A DNA stretch of 64,000 nt, from the NCBI RefSeq assembly GCF_010686655.1, contig NZ_JAAGVY010000027.1, positions 1 to 64,000 on the forward strand. Direction: 5' to 3'. The notes beneath the pieces are model-generated. The model had not been told where the DNA came from. It was given only the letters and a program-made list of their open reading frames with translations, and searched no databases. The translations under genes were made by a program, and so were the position numbers. Shown piece by piece: positions 4,308 through 56,568 of this stretch (position 1 is the first letter of the stretch; the number at the start of each line of letters is the position of its first letter). Origin of the DNA: Cryomorpha ignava (lineage in GTDB: Bacteria > Bacteroidota > Bacteroidia > Flavobacteriales_D > Cryomorphaceae).

Positions 4308-4363
4308 TTTTTGGTTCTTTGTTCTTTGTTTTTGGTTTTTAGTGTTTGGTTTTTGGTGATTTG
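4308..4363. repeat. heptanucleotide repeat tract (CYAANNA type)
   Basis: Read on the minus strand this is a run of 7-base units of the form CCAAAAA, CCAAACA, CTAAAAA, CCAAAAA, CAAAGAA, CAAAGAA, CCAAAAA. The same degenerate heptad recurs in at least six other gaps in the window (near 8731, 37826, 37995, 39210, 39727, 39828). Confidence 0.75.
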
Positions 4364-4655: not shown

Positions 4656-4932
4656 AAAGAGAGTTTGACGTGTTTGGTAGCTTTGAGGGCGCGCCGTACG
4701 GACTCTTTGCAGTCGAAAGGGTGCAAGCACGCTGAGAAGGTCGCAAAGGGGTGGCGATCCTGACGCTTTGTAGGTTTTTAAAGGTGATGGGTTTGTTGGT
4801 TGCAGCCTTGCAACCACCGGGCGCCCGTATGGGCTATTGAGCTTCATGATCCAGCCACTTGAGTGTATTGACAGACTCTAAGTAAAATTGCATGTATCTT
4901 TTTGTTGTGTGTAATTTGATGATTTGGATATT

Positions 4933-5584: not shown

Positions 5585-7144
5585 ATGAAACTTAGTTTGA
5601 TAAAACTGCTTCTTTTTGTTTTGATTTTATTGCCTTTGGAAATGTGGGCGCAGGAAAGTCCGATGCTTTTGAGGTCTGAATGTAATTCCTGGCGGGGTAC
5701 TGAAATTACTGCTGGTACCGAGTCGCTGTGTTTTTCTGCGACGGGTGTTGTTCAGGAGATTCATGTGGATTCATCTCACGCTATCTTATATGCGCTTATT
5801 CGCGAAAGCAAAAGAGGTAATTTGAAGAGAGACGGACATGTGGTGGCGTATGATCTTGGTCAGAGCCGGGAGCTATGGACTATCCCTTTTGACTTTATTC
5901 GCGATCAATTTTTTCTGGTGGATAGTTTGCCTGTCATTACGGGAAGGGATGAAACTTTTTGCGTAAATCGACAATCTGGTGTGGAGCTGTGGCGTGTTAA
6001 TTTCGAAATCGGTTTGGTAACGAAGCGAGGTGTAGGCTTAGGGAAGGATTTTAATGTTTTATTGGGTTTAGATTTGCGAAATGGAAAGGAGCTTTGGCGG
6101 AAGTCGGGCAAATTTGATGAAATAGAATCTTTTGAAATTCATGGTGATACGGCGGCTGTTTTTTTGAGAAAGGGATTAAACTTTCTGGATTTGCAAACGG
6201 GTGCGGGTTTTGTTGTGGAGGCTAAAACACTGGAAGGAGCGAATGCGGCGAGCGGAGCAGGAATAGGAGCAGCGGCTGCATTTGGAGCATTAGGCGGACT
6301 CGTAGGCGGACTGCTTTTAGGCGTTGCTGTAATAGTCGTTTCTGCCGATGCCGGTCCAGCAAACCAACGAGCTGATAATTCGCTAACCTCAATTTACATT
6401 TATGAAGAACACGTATTTTTTACTTCAAAAACAGAATTGTATAAAGTAAATCTGAATGGCGACGTAGTTTGGAAAGAACCTGTTGAAAAAGCGATTGGCT
6501 CTGCCCGAAAAGTGTTTGTAGTCAATGATGCCGTTTATTTGATTTCTAAAGGAGTCCTTTCTACACCTAATGGACCCATCTATAGCGATGCGGTGCTACA
6601 TAAAATGAATGTGGATGGAAGGGGATCTATACTTGGCGTACAGCTCAACACCGGAAACCGGGAGTATGTGGAGGATTTTTTGATAAAAGACTCGACCATT
6701 GTGATTGCGCTTAAGAATAAACTTGTAGAAATAAGACTTGATGATTTGAGTACGATGCAGGAGGAGTCTTTTGGAAGATCTAATCAACATGCGGGTTTTG
6801 GGGCTATTCTCAATCCGCCGGCTATTCTTTTTTCCGATTCGACTTTTGTAATGGCTGCCGAAAAATACCCGGGCGATTTTTTTGTGGCAAATACCGGTGG
6901 AATGAAGATTCGGTTTTCGGAAGGATTAGCGCCGGTGGAAGCTATTCGCGAAAAGAATTATTTTGCAATACGCCAGAAGGTAAACGGGAATGATATGTTT
7001 ATAACCAATGGCACCGATGTTTACTTGGTAGATTCAAAAGGTGAAAGGTTGAGTGATTTTAGTTTTACTACTGGGATGAAATATGTTGGTGGGAAGGTTC
7101 ATGATTTTGAAGATAATCGGATTTTTGTTGTTGAGGGTTTTTGA
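5585..7144 (+). CDS. secreted PQQ-like beta-propeller protein with an internal glycine-rich hydrophobic segment
   Basis: 519-aa protein with a clear N-terminal signal peptide (LIKLLLFVLILLPLEMWAQ). The body contains PQQ/quinoprotein-like blade signatures such as GHVVAYDLGQSRELWTIP, GVELWRV, LDLRNGKELWRK and LNGDVVWKEP, suggesting a beta-propeller of the outer-membrane assembly or quinoprotein type. Odd feature: at about residues 218-252 the propeller is interrupted by a run rich in Ala and Gly (GAGIGAAAAFGALGG, GGLLLGVAVIVV) that looks like a glycine zipper or membrane insertion. No T9SS sorting domain is visible at the C-terminus. Function unknown. No catalytic motif recognised. The upstream toxin pair ends 70 bases before it. 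Confidence 0.6.
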   Translation: MKLSLIKLLLFVLILLPLEMWAQESPMLLRSECNSWRGTEITAGTESLCFSATGVVQEIHVDSSHAILYALIRESKRGNLKRDGHVVAYDLGQSRELWTIPFDFIRDQFFLVDSLPVITGRDETFCVNRQSGVELWRVNFEIGLVTKRGVGLGKDFNVLLGLDLRNGKELWRKSGKFDEIESFEIHGDTAAVFLRKGLNFLDLQTGAGFVVEAKTLEGANAASGAGIGAAAAFGALGGLVGGLLLGVAVIVVSADAGPANQRADNSLTSIYIYEEHVFFTSKTELYKVNLNGDVVWKEPVEKAIGSARKVFVVNDAVYLISKGVLSTPNGPIYSDAVLHKMNVDGRGSILGVQLNTGNREYVEDFLIKDSTIVIALKNKLVEIRLDDLSTMQEESFGRSNQHAGFGAILNPPAILFSDSTFVMAAEKYPGDFFVANTGGMKIRFSEGLAPVEAIREKNYFAIRQKVNGNDMFITNGTDVYLVDSKGERLSDFSFTTGMKYVGGKVHDFEDNRIFVVEGF

Positions 7145-8615: not shown

Positions 8616-8730
8616 TTTATTAGCATTGATATTCCTTTTAATGTAAAATTTGGGATTTGGGATATTTGATATCTGGCGTATTTAATTCTGTGAATTTCAA
8701 AATTAGAAATTTGTCTACAGAATTATCCAA

Positions 8731-8765
8731 ACACCAAAACTAAAAACCAATCACCAAAAACTAAT
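8731..8765. repeat. heptanucleotide repeat tract (CYAANNA type)
   Basis: Units such as CCAAACA, CCAATCA, CCAAAAA and CTAATGA in near-perfect 7-base register. The 3' end of the minus-strand gene at 8751-9197 runs into it, so that gene's last residues (LISFW) and stop codon are encoded by the repeat. Confidence 0.65.
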
Positions 8766-13447: not shown

Positions 13448-14464
13448 ATGTCGGAAAATAAACCGTTTAAAATATTATCAATTGATGGGGGCGGTATAAA
13501 AGGGCTGTACAGTGCTACCGTACTCTCGCGACTCGAAGAAAAGGCAGGAAGAAGGGCAGGAGAATGCTTCGATATGATTTGTGGAACATCTACTGGAGGT
13601 ATAATAGCCTTGGGAGTTGCATCAGGTGAAAAGGCTACAGACTTAGCTAAATTATATTCTGAACATGGGAAAAGTATCTTTCCCACAAGTAACTATCGTT
13701 TCTTTAGATATTTTCAATCTAAAATACAAGCTTTAAAACAAACTCTGTTTTGGGGAAAGTATTCGGCAAAGCAGTTAAAAAAACAACTAACCAATACATT
13801 TAAGGAAAAGAAATTAGGTGAGCTTGACAATTTAGTATGTATTCCAAGCTTTAACTTAACTTCTGGATTGCCACGCGTCTTCAAGTTCCCGCATAAAGAA
13901 GGTGGATTCTTTATGGACAAGGAAATTCCATTAGTTGACGCTGCTTTAGCAACCTCTGCTGCTCCTACATATCTACCCATACATGAGTATAACGACACAA
14001 TGTTTGTAGACGGGGGTGTCTGGGCAAATAACCCTTCATTGTGCGGTTTGTTAGAAGCTTTAAAATTTTTTGTTGGTGATGAAGGCAAAAATTATACCCA
14101 CGTTGAGCTTTTGTCTATTGCCAGTATATCTCAGGCCAGCGGATGGGCGGCTAAATCAAGAAAGAGAAGGTCTTTTATTGGATGGAAATCAAAGCTCATG
14201 CAAACATCCATGGATGGGCAAGCTTATTTCACCCATTTCTTTATTCAAAATGCGATAAAAAAAATTGACCCAAGGGCAAAATATGTGCGTATCGAATCTC
14301 CAAAACTCTCCTGTGAGCAAATGGAAGTTTTAGAAATGGACAGAGCTGATAAAAGGGCATTAGCGACACTTAAATCATTGGGTAATCAGGATGGATATAC
14401 AAATGCAAATATTGAAAGTGTAATGAATTTCTTTAAAACAGATAAAACCTATAAAACACAATAA
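13448..14464 (+). CDS. capV: CapV-like patatin phospholipase, CBASS effector
   Basis: 338-aa patatin-family phospholipase. The glycine-rich oxyanion motif DGGGIKGL is at residues 13-20, the nucleophile elbow GTSTGG at 46-51 (catalytic Ser48), and the second catalytic residue in VDGGVWANNP at 187-196 (Asp188). All are intact. In the Vibrio CBASS system CapV is activated by 3'3'-cGAMP and degrades membrane phospholipids, killing the infected cell; the same role is expected here because two CD-NTase genes follow. The gap to the first CD-NTase is one base. No transmembrane helix or N-terminal signal, so it is cytosolic until activated. Which cyclic nucleotide it senses cannot be told. Confidence 0.88.
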   Translation: MSENKPFKILSIDGGGIKGLYSATVLSRLEEKAGRRAGECFDMICGTSTGGIIALGVASGEKATDLAKLYSEHGKSIFPTSNYRFFRYFQSKIQALKQTLFWGKYSAKQLKKQLTNTFKEKKLGELDNLVCIPSFNLTSGLPRVFKFPHKEGGFFMDKEIPLVDAALATSAAPTYLPIHEYNDTMFVDGGVWANNPSLCGLLEALKFFVGDEGKNYTHVELLSIASISQASGWAAKSRKRRSFIGWKSKLMQTSMDGQAYFTHFFIQNAIKKIDPRAKYVRIESPKLSCEQMEVLEMDRADKRALATLKSLGNQDGYTNANIESVMNFFKTDKTYKTQ

Positions 14465-14465
14465 T

Positions 14466-15482
14466 ATGTCAAACTGCCACAACCTTTTTCAAACCTTTAA
14501 TCGAGAATTGAATATCAAGCCAACTAAGAAAAAGAGCTTGATGACATCTCGTGATAATCTAAGAGATGAGATTAGAGACTATTTCAAAAAAAATCATAGT
14601 GACTATATTCCTTTTTTCAGAGGGCAGGGATCGTACTCCTTAGGTACTATGATTCGCACCAAGGACGACACATGTGATCTTGATAACGGAGTGTATTTTT
14701 TCCCAAAGCCGAGTGCAACAGGAACCGCGCTTCAAGGTTGGGTATGGGATGCTGTTGAGGATGTTACATCGGTAAAGCCACAGCACAGACAGCGATGCAT
14801 TAGAGTTGTTTACGTAAATGATTACCACATTGATTTACCAGTTTATTATAAGAGTAGTAAAACTGACGACAACGAAAAGCCGCATATAGCAGTCAAAAAT
14901 GATGAATGGTCAAAGAGTGACCCAAAGGAGTTTAGCGATTGGTTTTACGATGTAAAAGACGCGAATGGTCAATTAGTGAGAATTGTAAGATATTTGAAGG
15001 CATGGTGTGATAACCGATCTAAAAAGATGCCAAATGGATTGACAATGACAGTTTTGGCAGCTCAGCAAATAGTATATAATGATCGAGACGATATTTGCCT
15101 TAGGGATACGCTTAAGAAAATTAGGACGAGCTTAAAAGCAGATTGGTCATGCGTGATGCCCACGACTCCTAAGGATGATTTGCTTGAGAATTTCGGCGGA
15201 AGTAAAGATTACTTTTTCGAATCTCTTCAAGCTCTTATTGAAGATGCGGATATAGCAATAGATTCAGAAAAAAACCAATTAAAGGCGAGTAAACTCTGGA
15301 AGAAACATTTGGGATCATACTATCCGGAAGGCGAGGATAAGGATGTTGATAAACAAGAATCTAAATTGTCTTTAATTGCTGCTTCGATTCTCACTGGTAA
15401 AGCTAAACTTGATGATCAAGGCATAATTCAGGAAAAGACCGGGGTCGGTCATTTGCCCCATAAAAATTTTGGAGGCCAATGA
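14466..15482 (+). CDS. CD-NTase 1 (cGAS/DncV-like cyclic nucleotide synthase) with C-terminal tail
   Basis: 338-aa DncV-like nucleotidyltransferase. Catalytic signature GSYSLGT at residues 55-61, metal-binding Asp71 and Asp73 (CDLDNGVYF) and third Asp123 (HIDLPVYY) are all present. A later SDPKEFSDWF block matches DncV (SDPKIVEDWF), followed by an RYLKAW helix. The expected reaction is cyclic di- or trinucleotide synthesis upon phage infection. After the core end (KASKLWKKHLGSYYPE) there is an extra tail of about 50 residues ending HKNFGGQ, absent from CD-NTase 2. In type II CBASS the CD-NTase C-terminus is the point of attachment for the E1/E2 machinery, so this tail probably engages the E2-like protein whose ATG overlaps its stop (ATGA). 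Confidence 0.88.
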   Translation: MSNCHNLFQTFNRELNIKPTKKKSLMTSRDNLRDEIRDYFKKNHSDYIPFFRGQGSYSLGTMIRTKDDTCDLDNGVYFFPKPSATGTALQGWVWDAVEDVTSVKPQHRQRCIRVVYVNDYHIDLPVYYKSSKTDDNEKPHIAVKNDEWSKSDPKEFSDWFYDVKDANGQLVRIVRYLKAWCDNRSKKMPNGLTMTVLAAQQIVYNDRDDICLRDTLKKIRTSLKADWSCVMPTTPKDDLLENFGGSKDYFFESLQALIEDADIAIDSEKNQLKASKLWKKHLGSYYPEGEDKDVDKQESKLSLIAASILTGKAKLDDQGIIQEKTGVGHLPHKNFGGQ

Positions 15483-15907
15483 GTTTTTTTAAAAAGAAAT
15501 ATATCAATCCATTAGTGATTGCGCATCGGGAGATGAAATTGCTAAACGCAAATTATTCATTTCTGGAATGCAAGATTCAAAATAGTGTATTGTACTGTTA
15601 TGGAAGCATTCAACCAACAGAAGAGTCTATAACATATGACTACCGGATTAGGTACATTCCTTCGATACGACCAACAGTTACAGTCACTAATCCGATAATC
15701 GTATACAATGATGATATTCATATGTACCCTGCGGATAATTCATTGTGCTTGTATCACAGCTCCGATTTAGTTTGGAATTCAACTTGCCATTTGTACAATA
15801 CAATTATTCCATGGACGCATGAATGGTTTGTGTTTTATGAGTTGTATAAAATTACGGGTAGGTGGCTTCATCCATTTGTACCACACAAAAAAGAAAAGAA
15901 GAAATAA
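15479..15907 (+). CDS. standalone E2-like protein of short type II CBASS
   Basis: 142-aa protein resembling bacterial E2 ubiquitin-conjugating-like enzymes. The core reads VTVTNPIIVYNDDIHMYP, then DNSLCLYHSSDLVW; His81 and Cys90 match the conserved HxYP...LCLY catalytic region, Cys90 being the predicted thioester residue. WTHEWFVFYELYKITGRW is the usual C-terminal helix of these CBASS E2s. There is no E1 domain and no JAB peptidase gene nearby, so this fits the short type II layout in which an E2 acts alone on the CD-NTase C-terminus. It overlaps CD-NTase 1 by four bases and abuts CD-NTase 2 with no gap. The basic KKEKKK end is notable. Confidence 0.78.
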   Translation: MSFFKKKYINPLVIAHREMKLLNANYSFLECKIQNSVLYCYGSIQPTEESITYDYRIRYIPSIRPTVTVTNPIIVYNDDIHMYPADNSLCLYHSSDLVWNSTCHLYNTIIPWTHEWFVFYELYKITGRWLHPFVPHKKEKKK

Positions 15908-16771
15908 ATGGGGAACGCACACAATCAATTTTTACAGTTTGAAAGGGCGATATCCCTGAGTCCTGTTAAAAAAAGAAAGCTAATAATATCTCGAAGAGCA
16001 TTGGAGAAGCGTATTCGTGAATACTTTAAGGCGCATGTCAACTTTCTTACGCCAAAATTTTATATTCAAGGCTCATTCAAAATGGGGACAATGGTCATTA
16101 AAAAAAATGGTACTTATGATGTTGATGTTGGCGTTTACTTTTTGGAGAAACCTAAGATAAAGGCCTTGAGCTTGCAGGCAAATGTATCGAAGGCAGTAAA
16201 TGGACACACGCGTGGTGGTGTAGGGCATCGAGAGAAGTGTATCCGTGTCATTTATCAAGGGGCCTTTGATGTTGATCTTCCTGTGTATTACAAAATACCG
16301 CAAGACAAGCATCCCTTCATAGCCACTAAGAAAGGCTGGCATCAAAGCGACCCCAAAGAATTGTGCGATTGGTTTGAAAAGAAACGGAAAGAAAAGGATA
16401 CTGATGGCCAGATGCTGCGGCTGGTGAAATATTTTAAAGCTTGGGCAAATCAAAGGGAGAAAAAAATGCCAAGTGGTATAGCGTTAAGCGTATGGGTGGC
16501 GAACCATTACAGGTTTAATAAGAGAGATGATATTGCATTTTTCGAAACTGCAAAGTCTATTAAAAGCAAATTTTGGTGGGAAGTGGTTTGTAAAAATCCT
16601 GCAACACCCGGTGATGATTTCTTAGCAAAATTGGATAGAAACCAAGTAAGCAATTTTAAAAAATCCTTTTATCTCTTAGTTAGCGAGGCAGAACAAGCTA
16701 TCCTGCAAGATAATCACATTAAAGCCTCATATATTTGGAGGCAGCAATTCGGAGAAAAATTCCCCACATGA
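15908..16771 (+). CDS. CD-NTase 2, tandem paralogue without C-terminal tail
   Basis: 287-aa nucleotidyltransferase collinear with CD-NTase 1: GSFKMGT at residues 55-61, Asp71 and Asp73 (YDVDVGVYF) and Asp123 (DVDLPVYY) occupy the same residue numbers. The SDPKELCDWF block and RLVKYFKAW helix are also shared. It ends shortly after KASYIWRQQFGEKF, where CD-NTase 1 has about 50 more residues. It looks catalytically intact, so the operon probably has two working synthases, perhaps with different products or triggers, or an obligate pair. Its stop overlaps the ATG of the GGDEF gene (ATGA). I cannot say which nucleotides either enzyme uses. Confidence 0.85.
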   Translation: MGNAHNQFLQFERAISLSPVKKRKLIISRRALEKRIREYFKAHVNFLTPKFYIQGSFKMGTMVIKKNGTYDVDVGVYFLEKPKIKALSLQANVSKAVNGHTRGGVGHREKCIRVIYQGAFDVDLPVYYKIPQDKHPFIATKKGWHQSDPKELCDWFEKKRKEKDTDGQMLRLVKYFKAWANQREKKMPSGIALSVWVANHYRFNKRDDIAFFETAKSIKSKFWWEVVCKNPATPGDDFLAKLDRNQVSNFKKSFYLLVSEAEQAILQDNHIKASYIWRQQFGEKFPT

Positions 16772-17544
16772 TAAATAATGAAAGGATGAATAGCTACTTT
16801 ATTGAATCCATTAGAAAGTTCAAGAACGACATATTGTCTAAGGGTATTTATGATATAGTTAAGTGGCTTGTAATCATATTGTTTATATTTGTTTTCACCA
16901 ATTTGGTTCCTGCTGTTGATAATCTTCTGTCAAGCACACACGTCATTTCTTTGTACTGGATTGTAATATTAGTAATCTCCTTCACTTTATTAACAATAAT
17001 CATTGTTAGCAGTGTTTTTAGAAACAAAATAAGCAAAATTTTAAAAAAATATCATACTGATGAACTTACGGGATTAAAGAATAAACATGTAATAAAGGCA
17101 TATTTAAATCAAAAGATCGATGAGTTCAGAACGAAAGATGAATCAATGTCTATTATTTTGTTGGACATTGATAACTTTAAAAAATTTAACACGGAAATGG
17201 GTCACAATTCCGCTGATCAGATTATCAGGAAAGTTGGTGAACTTCTTCGAAATGACAAAAGAGTTACCGATGAAACATTCAGATATTTTACTGGGGATGA
17301 GTTTCTCGTAGTTGCTTGTTATACAAGTTTAAGCCAAGCATTGCAAGCCGCAGATCGAAAAAGGGATCTAATTCACAAAAATCTATTCGCAGTAAATGGA
17401 AAAAAACATATAGTTACCGTGTCTTGTGGTGTTGCTGAATTCAAAAAGGATGATGATTACATATCATTCACGAATAGAGCAATAGAAGCATTGAATGAAG
17501 CAAAAAAAGTAGTTGGTAAAAACAATACGAAATCAATAGTTTAA
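16768..17544 (+). CDS. membrane GGDEF-domain protein coupled to the CBASS module
   Basis: 258 aa. Two transmembrane helices (about residues 32-50 and 61-83), then a GGDEF domain from about 95: DELTGLKN (98-105), LLDIDNFKKFN (131-141), GHNSAD (145-150) and FRYFTGDEF (171-179), where the signature is TGDEF rather than GGDEF. The metal ligands and the Asn and Asp equivalent to the guanine-contacting residues of PleD (N141, D150) are present, so cyclic-di-GMP synthesis is plausible, but the Gly to Thr change may alter activity. I chose ATG 16768, which overlaps the upstream stop (ATGA), over ATG 16735, which would overlap CD-NTase 2 by 37 bases. GGDEF proteins are scarce in Bacteroidota, and one in a CBASS operon is unusual. 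It could be a third synthase, a decoy-signal maker or a membrane effector. Confidence 0.78.
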   Translation: MINNERMNSYFIESIRKFKNDILSKGIYDIVKWLVIILFIFVFTNLVPAVDNLLSSTHVISLYWIVILVISFTLLTIIIVSSVFRNKISKILKKYHTDELTGLKNKHVIKAYLNQKIDEFRTKDESMSIILLDIDNFKKFNTEMGHNSADQIIRKVGELLRNDKRVTDETFRYFTGDEFLVVACYTSLSQALQAADRKRDLIHKNLFAVNGKKHIVTVSCGVAEFKKDDDYISFTNRAIEALNEAKKVVGKNNTKSIV

Positions 17545-17609: not shown

Positions 17610-18689
17610 ATGCCATACAAAATCCCACAACTCCCTTTTGATTTCGATATAGAAACCAAAGCCATCATGAAGAAAACAGCAGTTGCGCGAAGTGCTTTGG
17701 CAGAGATGAAGGGTGCGGCGTTGAGTATTCCCAATGAAGATATTCTTATTAGTTCGCTTTCGCTGCAAGAGGCGAAGGATAGTTCGGCCATTGAGAATAT
17801 TATCACCACCCACGATGAGCTTTTTAAGTCTGATTTTATGGCACAGGATTTTACAAGTCTTGCCAGTAAGGAAGTGCATAATTATGCTGCCGCCTTGCGA
17901 TGGGGTTTTCAAACCGTGAAAAAATTAGGTTTCTTGAGCAACAATCATATTACCGACATACAGGCCGTTTTAGAAGAAACGAAGGCTGGATTTCGGAAAG
18001 TGCCGGGGACGGATTTGAAAAATGAGCAAACTGGAGAAGTAGTTTACACCCCACCTCAAACGTATGATGAAGTAGTGGCGCACATGGTAAATCTGGAGAG
18101 CTTTATAAATAACGACGATTTAACGGATTGGGATCCATTGGTAAAGATGGCAGTTCTCCATCATCAGTTTGAAAGTATTCACCCTTTTTATGACGGCAAT
18201 GGGCGTACGGGTAGGATAATAAATATTCTTTATCTGGTAAAAGAAGGCTTGTTGAACTTGCCTATCCTTTATTTAAGCCGGTATATCAATCGGAATAAAG
18301 CTGACTATTACCGTTTGCTTCAAAAAGTGCGTACTGAAAATGCCTGGGAAGAATGGATTTTGTTTATCCTCGACGGTGTAGAGGAAACCGCATTGCAAAC
18401 CATTAAAATCATTGAAGGAATTAAAAACTTGATGAAAAGCCACAAGGAAAGAATCCGAACAGAGCTACCTAAAATATACAGTCAGGATCTCCTTAACAAC
18501 CTATTCCGACATCCATACACCAAGATTGATTTTGTTATGCAAGATACCGGCGTGAGCAGAAAAACGGCTGCCAAGTATCTGGACGAACTGGATAAACTCG
18601 GAATCGTATTCAAGCAAAAGATTTGGAAGGACAATTATTATATCAACACAGATTTATTTAACCTTTTGCAGCATGTCAACAAATTATAG
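17610..18689 (+). CDS. Fic family protein (AMPylase-like), inhibitory helix present
   Basis: 359-aa Fic protein. The catalytic motif HPFYDGNGRTGR is at residues 191-202, with catalytic His191 and the phosphate-binding GNGR. An N-terminal inhibitory motif SSAIEN (58-63) matches the S/TxxxE(G/N) pattern that blocks ATP binding in self-inhibited (class II) Fic proteins. The C-terminal part (FVMQDTGVSRKTAAKYLDEL) looks like a winged helix-turn-helix. These proteins transfer AMP to protein hydroxyls, and many lie in restriction loci. It is 65 bases after the GGDEF gene and 221 before hsdR, probably same transcript. Target unknown. Confidence 0.9.
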   Translation: MPYKIPQLPFDFDIETKAIMKKTAVARSALAEMKGAALSIPNEDILISSLSLQEAKDSSAIENIITTHDELFKSDFMAQDFTSLASKEVHNYAAALRWGFQTVKKLGFLSNNHITDIQAVLEETKAGFRKVPGTDLKNEQTGEVVYTPPQTYDEVVAHMVNLESFINNDDLTDWDPLVKMAVLHHQFESIHPFYDGNGRTGRIINILYLVKEGLLNLPILYLSRYINRNKADYYRLLQKVRTENAWEEWILFILDGVEETALQTIKIIEGIKNLMKSHKERIRTELPKIYSQDLLNNLFRHPYTKIDFVMQDTGVSRKTAAKYLDELDKLGIVFKQKIWKDNYYINTDLFNLLQHVNKL

Positions 18690-18732
18690 TCAGGTGCATA
18701 AATGGATAAAACCTACCCACGAGGACTCTCTC

Positions 18733-18888
18733 ATGGGTAAATTATTCCGTTTTTTACCTATGACAAACCTGTCGTGTGTAAAAAGTGCGCAAAAACTGCG
18801 CATGAACAACCTAACATGTATAGAAAAGCACCGGAATCTATACATGCCAAGCGTGATATGTATAGAGAATGCCACTTTTCTATACATG
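18733..18888. repeat. array of four 42-base palindromic units
   Basis: Four units in 42-base register. The right-arm ATG ends fall at 18762, 18804, 18846 and 18888. Each unit is an inverted repeat: unit 1 ATGGGTAAA/TTTACCTAT, unit 2 TGTGTA/TGCGCA (with GU pairs), units 3 and 4 ATGTATAGA/TCTATACAT. The arm sequences change between units while complementarity is largely kept, and every right arm ends in ATG. The loops (about 11-16 bases) are unrelated. Because 42 is divisible by three, long frames stay open on both strands with 14-residue repeats, but I take these as a by-product. It sits between fic and hsdR. It could be a structured RNA region or a recombination or protein-binding array. Confidence 0.75.
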
Positions 18889-18910: not shown

Positions 18911-21900
18911 ATGGACACACCCAGTTTTAAAGAAGACCACATAAGCCAAATACCGGCATTGCAAATGTTGCAAAAATTGGGGTATCAATATCTCACACCC
19001 GATGAGGCTTTGCAGATGCGCGGTGGAAAAACGACCCAGGTTATTTTGGAAGATGTTTTACGTAAGCAGCTCACGGAAATCAACAGCATAAAAGTAAGCG
19101 CAAAGAAAACCAGCTTCTTTTCGAATGATAATATTGATCGTGGCATTATGGTCTTGAAAGAGATTTTGATGAATGATGGCTATATAAATGCTTGCGAAAC
19201 GGCGTATAATCTACTCACCTTGGGCAAGGCGTTGGAGCAAAGTATTGATGGTGACAAAAAGAGTTTCAACTTGCGCTACATTGACTGGGAAAACATGGGA
19301 AACAATGTATTTCATGTTACCGAAGAATACAGCGTAATGCGCAGCACCAGCAAAGACCATTACCGACCTGATTTGGTTTTGTTTATTAATGGTATTCCAA
19401 TTACAATAATAGAATGCAAACGCCCAGATATGAAAGAGCCGCTAAAACAGGCTATCAGTCAGCATTTGCGCAACCAGCAGGAAGATGGCATCCGGGGATT
19501 ATATATTTATTCGCAACTTACTTTGAGCATTGCAACCCAAGAAGCGGCTTATGCTACCAATGCCACACCAGAAAAGTTTTGGTCGAAGTGGAAAGAAAAG
19601 TTTGAATCGAAGCAGGACGAAGAGCAATACAAGGAGACGCTCCATGAGTTAAAGAATAGTCCCTTAACTACCGATCAGAAATCAAAACTGTTTTCAGATC
19701 GCTTCCGCTATGTTAAGTCCTATTTTAATGCATTAGAAACCGAGGATATTCTAACAACGGTTCAAGACGAATACCTTTTTGGTTTATGTCGTCCCGAGCG
19801 TCTCATGGATATCATGCATAACTTCATTCTGTTTGATAATGGGGATAAGAAAATAGCCAGATACCAGCAGTATTTTGCCGTTAAGAAATCAATGAAACGC
19901 ATTCAGCATATAGAAGGAGGCAGGCGCAAGGGCGGAGTGATTTGGCATACGCAGGGAAGTGGGAAATCTCTCACAATGGTTATGCTTGCTCAAGCCATTG
20001 CGATGGATAAGAATATTCGCAATCCTAAAATTATTCTTGTAACAGATAGAACAGATTTGGATCGCCAAATTACCGGCACGTTTCGTAAATGCGGGATGTT
20101 TGTTGAGAATGCTTCTACCGGGCAACGTTTGGTTGAGCTGCTTGAAAGCAAAAGCGATGCGGTGGTTACTACCGTTATCAACAAATTCGTAGCTGCGGTT
20201 AAAAAGATTAAAAAACCGCTTCAGAGTCACGATATATTTGTGTTGGTAGATGAGGGGCACAGATCTCAAGCCGGTACCTTTAATATTGAAATGCAAAAGA
20301 CATTACCCAACGCTTGTTTTATTGCACTCACAGGTACACCGCTTTTCAAAAAGGATAAGAGTACTGCAGCAAAGTTTGGAGGTATTATTGATGATTATAC
20401 GGTAGATCAGGCGGTAAAAGACAAAGCCGTGGTTCCCTTGTTGTATGAAGGCAGGTTGGCAAAGCAAACAGTTAATGCCAGTCCTTTAGATACTTTTTTT
20501 GAAATGGTTTCGGAGCCATTAACAGTTTACCAAAAAGCAGATTTCAAGAAAAAATTTAGCCGCGCTGATCAGCTCAATAGTGCAGAGCAAAAGATTTATG
20601 CCATTGCCTGGAATATCAGTTTACATTTTAGAGATAACTGGCAAGGCAAAACTCCATTTAAAGCACAACTTGTATGCGATAAGAAAGTGAATGCAATTCG
20701 CTACAAGCAGTTTCTGGACGAGATTGGTATTGTATCAAGCGAGGTGTTGATTTCATCTATTGATGACCGTGAAGGTGAGGACAGTGCTTATGAGAAATCA
20801 TCAGAAAAGGAAAATCGCTTTTGGAAGCGAATGATGGATGAACATGGGAACCAGAAATTATACGAGAAAAACATAATCAGTCGATTTAAAAACCAAAAGG
20901 ATCCTGAGATAATCATCGTTGTAGATAAGCTCCTTACGGGCTTTGATGAACCTAAAAACACTGTTCTATACCTAACAAGAAATCTTCGAAATCATAAGCT
21001 ACTGCAAGCTATTGCTCGGGTTAACAGGATATATCCTGACAAGGAATTTGGCTATATCGTAGATTACTATGGAGTTATTGAAAACTTGGATGATGCTCTC
21101 TTGATGTATTCATCTTTTGAAGATTTTGATGAGGAAGATTTGGAAGGTACGCTGACCAACATTGCTGAAGAAATCAAGAAGCTTCCGCAAAAGCATTCTG
21201 AACTATGGGATATTTTCAAAACCGTGGCAAACAAGCGAGACGCTGAGGCATATCAGGTTTTGCTTAAAGATGAAGCGATACGTGCAGTGTTCTATGATAA
21301 ATTGGCTGCATTTGCCAAAGGATTGAAGTTGGCACTTTCATCAATGTTGTTTCACAAAGAAACAGAGGAAAAGGTCATCGATCGATACAAGGAAGACTTG
21401 GCGATGTTTATGAAATTAAGAATGTCAGTAGTTGAGCGGTACTCTGATGCTGTAGATTACAAGCAATATGAAGGGCAAATTCAAAAGCTGATCGATACGC
21501 ACGTCACCAGTGAGAAAGTGGAAGTGATTACTGAGCTGGTAAATATTTTTGATAAAGATAAGTTTCAGGAGGAAGTTGAGAATACAACCGGCAAAGCTGC
21601 CAAGGCGGATAAGATTGCCAGCAGAACCGCTAAACACATCTCTGAAAAGATGGATGAAGATCCTGCTTTTTATAAAAAATTCTCGCAGATGCTAAAGGAT
21701 GCAATTTCCGAATACGAGACGAAGCGGATAAATGAAGCTCAGTATTTACGTAAAGTCCAAGATATTATGGAAAATGTGCTGGCCAGAACCGACAGTGATA
21801 TTCCTGAAGCTTTGAAAGATAGAGATGTGGCCAAGGCATTCTATGGGTTGACTCTTGAGGCGCTAACGGATAAGATAGAAAATATAAACTTGAGCACCGA

Positions 21901-22138
21901 AATTGCTTTGCATTCTGCGCTTGAAATTGATGATCTAATAATAAATGCTGTACTTGATAAAGGCAAAGCAATTGTTGACTGGCAGCAAAAATCCAGCATT
22001 ACCGGAAAACTGCAAATTGAGATTGGAGATTATCTCATTGATGAAGTTAGAGACAAATATCACATTTCATTAAGTTTTGGTGAAATGGATGAGATTGCAA
22101 ATAATTGTATTGAGGTTGCTAAATTAAGATACAAGTGA
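18911..22138 (+). CDS. hsdR: type I restriction endonuclease, R subunit
   Basis: 1075-aa motor and nuclease subunit. The N-terminal PD-(D/E)xK nuclease shows YRPDLVLFINGIPITIIECK (about residues 152-171). The superfamily 2 helicase follows, with Walker A QGSGKSLTM near 348, DEGH motif II near 445 and LTGTPLF motif III soon after. The C-terminal helical part (about 850-1075) binds the methyltransferase core. It cuts unmethylated DNA after ATP-driven translocation. Full length. Its stop overlaps the GTG of the YgjP-like gene. It is separated from hsdS by the CBASS-like module, fic and the 42-base array. Confidence 0.95.
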   Translation: MDTPSFKEDHISQIPALQMLQKLGYQYLTPDEALQMRGGKTTQVILEDVLRKQLTEINSIKVSAKKTSFFSNDNIDRGIMVLKEILMNDGYINACETAYNLLTLGKALEQSIDGDKKSFNLRYIDWENMGNNVFHVTEEYSVMRSTSKDHYRPDLVLFINGIPITIIECKRPDMKEPLKQAISQHLRNQQEDGIRGLYIYSQLTLSIATQEAAYATNATPEKFWSKWKEKFESKQDEEQYKETLHELKNSPLTTDQKSKLFSDRFRYVKSYFNALETEDILTTVQDEYLFGLCRPERLMDIMHNFILFDNGDKKIARYQQYFAVKKSMKRIQHIEGGRRKGGVIWHTQGSGKSLTMVMLAQAIAMDKNIRNPKIILVTDRTDLDRQITGTFRKCGMFVENASTGQRLVELLESKSDAVVTTVINKFVAAVKKIKKPLQSHDIFVLVDEGHRSQAGTFNIEMQKTLPNACFIALTGTPLFKKDKSTAAKFGGIIDDYTVDQAVKDKAVVPLLYEGRLAKQTVNASPLDTFFEMVSEPLTVYQKADFKKKFSRADQLNSAEQKIYAIAWNISLHFRDNWQGKTPFKAQLVCDKKVNAIRYKQFLDEIGIVSSEVLISSIDDREGEDSAYEKSSEKENRFWKRMMDEHGNQKLYEKNIISRFKNQKDPEIIIVVDKLLTGFDEPKNTVLYLTRNLRNHKLLQAIARVNRIYPDKEFGYIVDYYGVIENLDDALLMYSSFEDFDEEDLEGTLTNIAEEIKKLPQKHSELWDIFKTVANKRDAEAYQVLLKDEAIRAVFYDKLAAFAKGLKLALSSMLFHKETEEKVIDRYKEDLAMFMKLRMSVVERYSDAVDYKQYEGQIQKLIDTHVTSEKVEVITELVNIFDKDKFQEEVENTTGKAAKADKIASRTAKHISEKMDEDPAFYKKFSQMLKDAISEYETKRINEAQYLRKVQDIMENVLARTDSDIPEALKDRDVAKAFYGLTLEALTDKIENINLSTEIALHSALEIDDLIINAVLDKGKAIVDWQQKSSITGKLQIEIGDYLIDEVRDKYHISLSFGEMDEIANNCIEVAKLRYK

Positions 22139-37817: not shown

Positions 37818-37825
37818 GTTATCTT

Positions 37826-37857
37826 AGTTTTTAGTTCTTGGTGATTAGTTTTTAGAC
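37826..37857. repeat. heptanucleotide repeat, left partner
   Basis: On the minus strand: CTAAAAA, CTAATCA, CCAAGAA, CTAAAAA. It is inverted relative to the tract at 37995-38027, so the two flank the 140 bases between the thiolase and dehydrogenase genes. Confidence 0.65.
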
Positions 37858-37994
37858 ATGATGCAGACTGATTTCAGTCTATTCATGTAAGATATTCCTA
37901 ATCAATGCTTATTTTTATTATCAAATGGGTTGTTAATTAATTCCTTACATCATAACTTTTGCTGATGATTTTAATCTTTGGTCAAGTTAGAGTG

Positions 37995-38027
37995 TCCAAA
38001 AACCAAAAACTAATCACCAAAAACCAA
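37995..38027. repeat. heptanucleotide repeat, right partner
   Basis: Plus strand: CCAAAAA, CCAAAAA, CTAATCA, CCAAAAA, CCAATTA in exact 7-base steps, ending at the stop codon of the thiolase gene. Complementary to 37826-37857, so a long stem-loop in mRNA is possible. Confidence 0.65.
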
Positions 38028-39206: not shown

Positions 39207-39270
39207 AGAGAGTTTTTAGTTCTTAGTTTTTGGTTCTTAGTTTTTGGTGTTTGGTTTGGTGCGTGGTTTT
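39207..39270. repeat. heptanucleotide repeat tract (minus-strand CYAANNA units)
   Basis: On the minus strand: CCAAACA, CCAAAAA, CTAAGAA, CCAAAAA, CTAAGAA, CTAAAAA, six or more consecutive units. It directly precedes the thiolase start codon and ends 11 bases before the four-helix-bundle gene's stop. Confidence 0.7.
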
Positions 39271-39726: not shown

Positions 39727-39758
39727 CCAATAACCAAGCACCAAAAACCAAAAACCAT
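39727..39758. repeat. heptanucleotide repeat, upstream of the four-helix-bundle gene
   Basis: CCAATAA, CCAAGCA, CCAAAAA, CCAAAAA in 7-base steps on the plus strand, inverted relative to 39207-39270. With that tract it brackets the four-helix-bundle gene. Confidence 0.65.
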
Positions 39759-39827
39759 TCTCAATTTCAATAATCACATTCTAAAGATTTCTATTTTTTG
39801 AAGTTCAATATTTGCATTGAAGTAAGT

Positions 39828-39864
39828 CTTCCAAAAACCAAACACCAAGAACTAAAAACCAATA
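39828..39864. repeat. heptanucleotide repeat after fadB-like gene
   Basis: CCAAAAA, CCAAACA, CCAAGAA, CTAAAAA, CCAATAT on the plus strand, ending right at the stop codon of the FadB-like gene (39865). Confidence 0.65.
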
Positions 39865-56300: not shown

Positions 56301-56313
56301 TTTACTAATAATC

Positions 56314-56378
56314 AATAGGCAATTTGCAATAGGCAATAAGCAATTGGCAATAAGCAATAAGCAATTTTCAATAACGAT
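56314..56378. repeat. heptanucleotide repeat tract (CAATNNG type)
   Basis: Nine units in perfect 7-base register: CAATAGG, CAATTTG, CAATAGG, CAATAAG, CAATTGG, CAATAAG, CAATAAG, CAATTTT, CAATAAC. A different family from the CYAANNA tracts elsewhere. Confidence 0.75.
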
Positions 56379-56494
56379 CTTAATTACTACTCAAATCCTT
56401 CCAATTAGATTCTAATTTTTATTATACCTTAAGGTAAACTCCCTTTCCTGCATCCGACGAGGCTTTTCGCCGAGAGGAATGCACAAGGGCGGCA

Positions 56495-56568
56495 ATGAGC
56501 AATAGGCAATAGGCAATTCGCAATAGTCAATAAGAGACAGGTAATTGGCAATAAGCAATATGCAACCT
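56495..56568. repeat. second CAATNNG heptad tract
   Basis: Units include CAATGAG, CAATAGG, CAATAGG, CAATTCG, CAATAGT, CAATAAG, then two drifted units, CAATAAG and CAATATG. Same orientation as the tract at 56314, about 115 bases away. Confidence 0.7.

Follow-up and report, generated by a model that had tools for sequence, protein, structure and literature searches.

What is the series of palindromes that separates fic from the type I restriction gene hsdR in Cryomorpha ignava, and which molecule does it serve? We addressed this question in a 64,000-nucleotide stretch (the window; contig NZ_JAAGVY010000027.1, positions 1 to 64,000, assembly GCF_010686655.1). A preliminary description, made from the sequence alone, reported a four-unit, 42-base palindrome array with compensatory arm changes, including GU pairs, and suggested a role in mRNA structure, recombination or insertion of the defence cassette. 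Our analysis indicates that the palindromes are very probably docking sites for the neighboring anti-phage protein SoFic, although DNA binding by SoFic has not been demonstrated (PMC10628234).

Structure of the palindrome array

The array described at this locus was confirmed. The right arms (CATG or its variant) end at 18762, 18804, 18846 and 18888, at exact 42-base steps, and the previously given arm sequences are correct. The pattern TGTATAG-N11..16-CTATACA occurs twice in the window, both times within the array, against 0 in 100 shuffles, and the region folds with z = -5.86 against dinucleotide shuffles. Two corrections were required. A further half-site, CTACCCAC (reverse complement GTGGGTAG), missed in the preliminary description, lies in register with the rest (18762 - 42 = 18720), so that the array comprises nine half-sites. 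In addition, unit 2 is weak as a palindrome, reading GTGTGTAAAA...CTGCGCATG. The two perfect TGTATAGA...TCTATACA units are the only ones in the 5.0 Mb draft genome, whereas the ATGGGTA...TACCYAT form is found here and once elsewhere with a shorter, non-matching spacing. The array is thus not a repeat dispersed in this genome, and the many copies per genome expected of REP/BIME-like elements were not observed. No direct-repeat family was found, in agreement with the earlier statement that the array is not a CRISPR. A search against Rfam returned only rliG, at 30.1 bits against a gathering score of 55 bits, and no tRNA was found in the window, which gave no support to a tRNA or att-type site.

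The upstream gene encodes a SoFic-type (class II) Fic protein: it carries Fic_N, the Fic core motif HPFxxGNGR, a SoFic-like C-terminal domain and, as read directly from the translation, SSAIEN as a match to the N-terminal inhibitory motif [ST]xxxE[GN]. The coordinates of these and neighboring features are summarized in the table. Short heptamer repeats (CCAAAAA/TTTTTGG, AATAAGC) are also scattered through the window, at 4308-4363, 8727-8765, 37824-38027, 39211-39269, 39727-39862 and 56307-56565.

Table. Features of the fic–hsdR region and its surroundings in the window (L222, a locus encoding the other clear K-type SoFic protein)
Feature	Position	Strand	Description	Supporting data
CBASS cluster	13448-16771		Phospholipase effector, two cyclase genes and an E2-like gene between them; two cyclases side by side is unusual	
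GGDEF gene	16735-17544		Diguanylate cyclase gene; overlaps the end of the second CBASS cyclase and directly precedes fic	
fic	17610..18689	+	SoFic-type Fic protein (359 aa); Fic_N + Fic (HPFYDGNGR) + SoFic-like C-terminal winged helix; recognition helix VSRKTAAKYL	Pfam PF13784 2.6e-25, PF02661 1.2e-17, PF21248 1.4e-24; PADLOC SoFic 1.5e-120; PDB 3eqx/3zcn/9vjc
Whole operator-like array	18713..18887	.	Nine alternately inverted half-sites	Exact 42-base steps; half-site measurements
Half-site R0	18713..18720	-	GTGGGTAG (K-type), in register	Half-site measurements
Unit 1	18733..18761	.	29 bp; ATGGGTAAA ... TTTACCTAT, K-type half-sites	Same half-site as the K-helix SoFic in L222
Unit 2	18774..18803	.	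30 bp; GTGTGTAAAA ... CTGCGCAT, intermediate or decayed half-sites	Half-site measurements
Unit 3	18816..18845	.	30 bp; ATGTATAGAAAA ... TCTATACAT, L-type half-sites	Half-site measurements; genome search
Unit 4	18858..18887	.	30 bp; ATGTATAGAGAA ... TTCTATACAT, L-type half-sites	Half-site measurements; genome search
hsdR	18911..22138	+	Type I restriction subunit; start codon 23 bases after the last half-site	TIGR00348 1.5e-135; PADLOC REase_I 7e-211

Related arrays accompany SoFic genes

The absence of any other copies and of significant covariation had been named in advance as the outcome that would overturn the original interpretation; neither condition was found, since copies exist in many phyla and covary. 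A DNA search of 100 related genomes found similar palindromes in the same gap between fic and hsdR (one genome), before hsdR (another), beside fic without hsdR (a third, with four units) and beside mnmG (a fourth), as single loci in relatives. A scan of the GTDB genome collection with a single-unit pattern, not based on protein, returned 119 loci falling into two classes. One is a Clostridial hairpin with T/A-rich flanks, TTTTAT-TGTATAGGAAA...TTTCCTATACA-ATAAAA, recurring between genes in 54 loci (L033, L034, L036 and 51 further ones), often several per genome and often beside a second hairpin; none of the 54 lies near fic, and this class was separated off as unrelated. The second is the present kind, spread over Bacteroidota, Proteobacteria, Chlamydiae, Cyanobacteria and others. 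Among 63 loci with this palindrome or related to the window, 37 have an adjacent homologous ORF of about 360 aa, identified as SoFic, a Fic protein with an N-terminal inhibitory domain and a C-terminal winged helix that is listed as an anti-phage system. By tblastn, fic lies within 700 bp of the palindrome in 48 of the 79 rows examined, repeated loci included.

We next started from the protein. SoFic homologs collected by protein similarity, together with the palindrome-found loci holding a full-length fic, gave 146 distinct full-length loci. Of these, 81 have a significant tandem palindrome (exceeding 30 shuffles by 2 or more) in one flank, 60 upstream and 21 downstream including the window, and none in both, compared with 2 of 200 control flanks. 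Among the 112 proteins with an R-X-T-A recognition helix, 74 pass this criterion, and many of the others show the same half-sites by eye.

The geometry of the arrays is fixed. Measured between half-sites, the unit is 29 or 30 bp in 99 of 99 cases and the gap between units 11 or 12 bp in 85 of 86, for six different half-site sequences; the window conforms, with units of 29, 30, 30 and 30 bp and gaps of 12. Half-sites thus alternate in orientation about every 20–21 bp, i.e., two helical turns.

Symmetry at the DNA level

A covariation count on 53 distinct units was strong, with a score of 0.430 against 0.173 in shuffles and at most 0.152 for slid versions, and 104 cells changed on both sides against 43 in shuffles and at most 17 in slid versions; units were picked partly for complementarity, which raises these figures. 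This confirms, across homologous loci, the earlier claim that changes on one arm are matched on the other, and that selection keeps the dyad symmetry rather than plain duplication producing it. The GU pairs, however, are not special. RNA pairing would tolerate G-T and not A-C, yet among imperfect arm pairs in 142 related units, G-T (63) and A-C (54) are equally common (p 0.46). The symmetry is therefore kept at the DNA level, within the power of this test.

The half-site follows the recognition helix

The half-site sequence follows one residue, X, of the recognition helix (R-X-T-A). Without any use of palindromy, we recorded the commonest of six candidate half-sites in the flanks of each locus. 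Proteins with L/I/V had TGTATA in 36 loci and TGTAAA in 5, with 10 undecided; P had TGTAAA in 15 and TGTATA in 1, with 2 undecided; A.RQTA had TGTCGA in 24, with 2 undecided; other Q had TGTTAA in 4, with 3 undecided; N had TGCACA in 3; and K had TGGGTA in L222, in addition to the window. The four or five L/I/V proteins that use TGTAAA belong mostly to one clade with TAAN/TAAS helices. The pattern was the same in loci found by protein search alone (P 15/15, Q 4/4, A.RQTA 24/24, N 3/3, L/I/V 13 of 17), and a later Q-type locus (L293, ITRQTA) has GTTAACATG after fic. Mutual information exceeded all 5000 permutations. These counts are not phylogenetically independent, as relatedness inflates such figures (the A.RQTA proteins are one clade), and the six candidate half-sites were chosen after looking at the data. 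On a tree built without the C-terminal domain, the residue changes about 14 times and independent pairs never go the other way, but only two pairs rest on strongly supported branches. The closest relative examined (locus L160), 73% identical to the Fic protein of the window, has P instead of K and ATGTAAAG half-sites in the same fic–array–hsdR setting.

In the window, the array grades from GTGGGTAG and ATGGGTAAA at the fic end, through ATAGGTAAA and two intermediate half-sites, to four ATGTATAG half-sites at the hsdR end. A K helix is expected to pair with TGGGTA; two exact such half-sites lie near fic while four TGTATA half-sites lie near hsdR, a mixture that leaves the agreement between helix and half-site undecided for this array. 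The L222 protein (LTRKTASKYL) has nine TGGGTA half-sites after its fic, and a further search in the class found no second K-type protein. The neatest inference is a recognition helix that has changed from L-type to K-type, with the operator rewritten from the fic end, although this rests on a single other locus.

The same genome encodes a second, distant SoFic homolog (40%; contig C3, 128313-129383), whose upstream region has a different repeat (TTTTTAATGCC...GAGTAAACATTA...TTTTTAATGTCTAC).

A putative operator array of SoFic

Taken together, the best explanation, which we hold with high but not complete confidence, is that the array is a DNA operator: a ladder of alternately inverted half-sites bound by dimers of the adjacent SoFic protein through its C-terminal winged helix. 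The matched changes on both arms are what a dimeric DNA-binding protein would enforce. In most relatives, the array lies upstream of fic; in E. coli, it runs up to the sofic start codon, with the best sigma-70-like site inside it, 36 bp before fic, suggesting autorepression as the likely role upstream. No palindromes of this kind were found in the 330 bp before fic of the window, so here the operator does not lie in the promoter of its own gene. In the window and at least four relatives (L005, L047, L080 and L160), the array separates fic from hsdR, and SoFic bound there would limit transcription into hsdR (and of anything starting in the gap), coupling the restriction subunit to the SoFic level. 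A simple promoter–operator reading does not cover all cases, since in several of the downstream loci the next gene is convergent, and a role independent of the next promoter (holding SoFic, or an antisense promoter) remains possible. The conservation, the fixed geometry, the correlation between helix and half-site and the absence of an RNA-type pairing bias come directly from our data, while binding, repression, the effect on hsdR and the transitional state of the window are inferred, neither binding nor transcription having been assayed here.

The closest published case is CccR of Yersinia pseudotuberculosis (PMC9755527), a dimeric Fic protein of the same architecture that binds inverted repeats at long spacing and represses its own promoter. 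Its DNA-binding helices are 70.2 angstrom apart, which we calculate as the length of about 20.6 bp of B-DNA. CccR differs in being a secreted T6SS effector and in its operator, a single pair of 10-bp repeats 26 bp apart rather than a ladder, with a different half-site (AGATAATCAT), located upstream of its own gene. Among SoFic anti-phage proteins (S. oneidensis, PDB 3eqx/3zcn; E. coli Sofic, PMC12249575), the type to which the window protein belongs, E. coli sofic has an array upstream; in one E. coli genome (S10), the gene is annotated as frameshifted while its upstream array is present. We found no operator or DNA binding reported for SoFic in the papers searched and read. RptR, a repressor of type I R-M defence islands (PMC12255303), also has several palindromic sites near a type I R-M system and represses itself, but it is an unrelated small protein with TAGCTA sites arranged as 9-bp direct repeats. 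CbFic2 of Coxiella (PMC10628234) combines Fic with a winged helix, and DNA binding alters its activity, but it was tested with random DNA only and targets host histone H3.

How SoFic, a toxic anti-phage protein, is kept quiet and then activated is an open question (PMC12249575). The proposed operator gives a concrete, widely conserved DNA partner for its C-terminal domain, with a readable specificity code (one helix residue against four bases), and makes DNA binding, autoregulation and coupling to type I restriction directly testable. It also offers a natural series of a repressor and its operator changing together, with the window apparently caught between two states.

Alternative explanations

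The interpretation offered in the preliminary description was thus only partly supported: selection on the dyad held, but neither a role in mRNA structure nor one in recombination or cassette insertion did. Hairpins acting in the fic–hsdR mRNA (stability, processing or an antitoxin-like RNA) would agree with the strong folding, the compensatory changes and the downstream placement in 21 loci; we consider this very unlikely given the balance of G-T and A-C pairs, a gap between units as fixed as the unit itself, half-sites that follow the recognition helix, E. coli arrays lying over the likely promoter and the lack of an Rfam family. A mobile palindromic element or cassette boundary (REP/MITE-like), left as a scar where fic is lost, is equally improbable. 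It could account for orphan arrays near hsdR, hsdM, mnmG and in phages, for decayed fic beside some arrays (L063, L081, L102) and for a RAYT-like (Y1 transposase) gene 257 bp from one array (L071:3351-3879, the other side being cut off by the contig end), but there is one locus in this genome, half-sites change with the helix and arrays lie on one side of fic rather than flanking it. The least likely reading is a small repetitive peptide, perhaps an antitoxin like AS1, a 47-residue ORF reported downstream of E. coli sofic (PMC12249575). A period of 42 is 14 codons and both strands are open here; however, periods of 40, 41 and 42 occur in near-equal numbers in related arrays, which breaks any frame, no Pfam match was found, and arrays occur upstream or downstream of fic. 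The main text of that paper gives no AS1 sequence, and AS1 itself was not compared with the arrays.

A tether or sensor role, with DNA-bound SoFic held inactive and released when phage destroys or out-titrates host DNA and transcriptional control being secondary, is possible but unlikely. The free position of the arrays relative to promoters, the change in dimer state and AMPylation activity of CbFic2 upon DNA binding (PMC10628234) and the dependence of SoFic toxicity on dimerisation and the C-terminal domain (PMC12249575) are in its favor, while direct evidence is absent and CccR toxicity and regulation were reported as independent (PMC9755527). In a more speculative and likewise doubtful version, the array is a holding device as well as an operator: SoFic dimers are stored on it in an inactive state, its position is therefore free, and phage attack on host DNA, or phage-borne copies of the array, shifts SoFic between bound and free forms, switching abortive infection on or blocking it.

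Arrays without SoFic

Arrays without a detectable SoFic count against the operator reading and are unexplained. In bacterial genomes, no SoFic was detected at E 1e-30 in 14 of 22 cases, although MAGs may be incomplete; several of these arrays lie beside hsdR or hsdM, and some bacterial cases have broken fic remnants and look like relics. Tandem TGTATAG arrays with a 41/42-bp period also occur in phage contigs with terminase, portal or head-tail genes (L339:7952-8021, L347:11875-11944, L340, L348 and L349) and no SoFic gene in the sequence examined; we have no explanation for these. Reverse searches of viral contigs with K-, N- and TCGA-type half-sites gave mainly single terminator-like hairpins without fic, which do not bear on the question either way, and P-type hits there look mainly like terminators. 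Finally, two loci carry two arrays each, some 2 to 6.6 kb apart and possibly flanking a block of genes (L144:43-113 and 6682-6750; L125:2531-2673 and 4798-4828).
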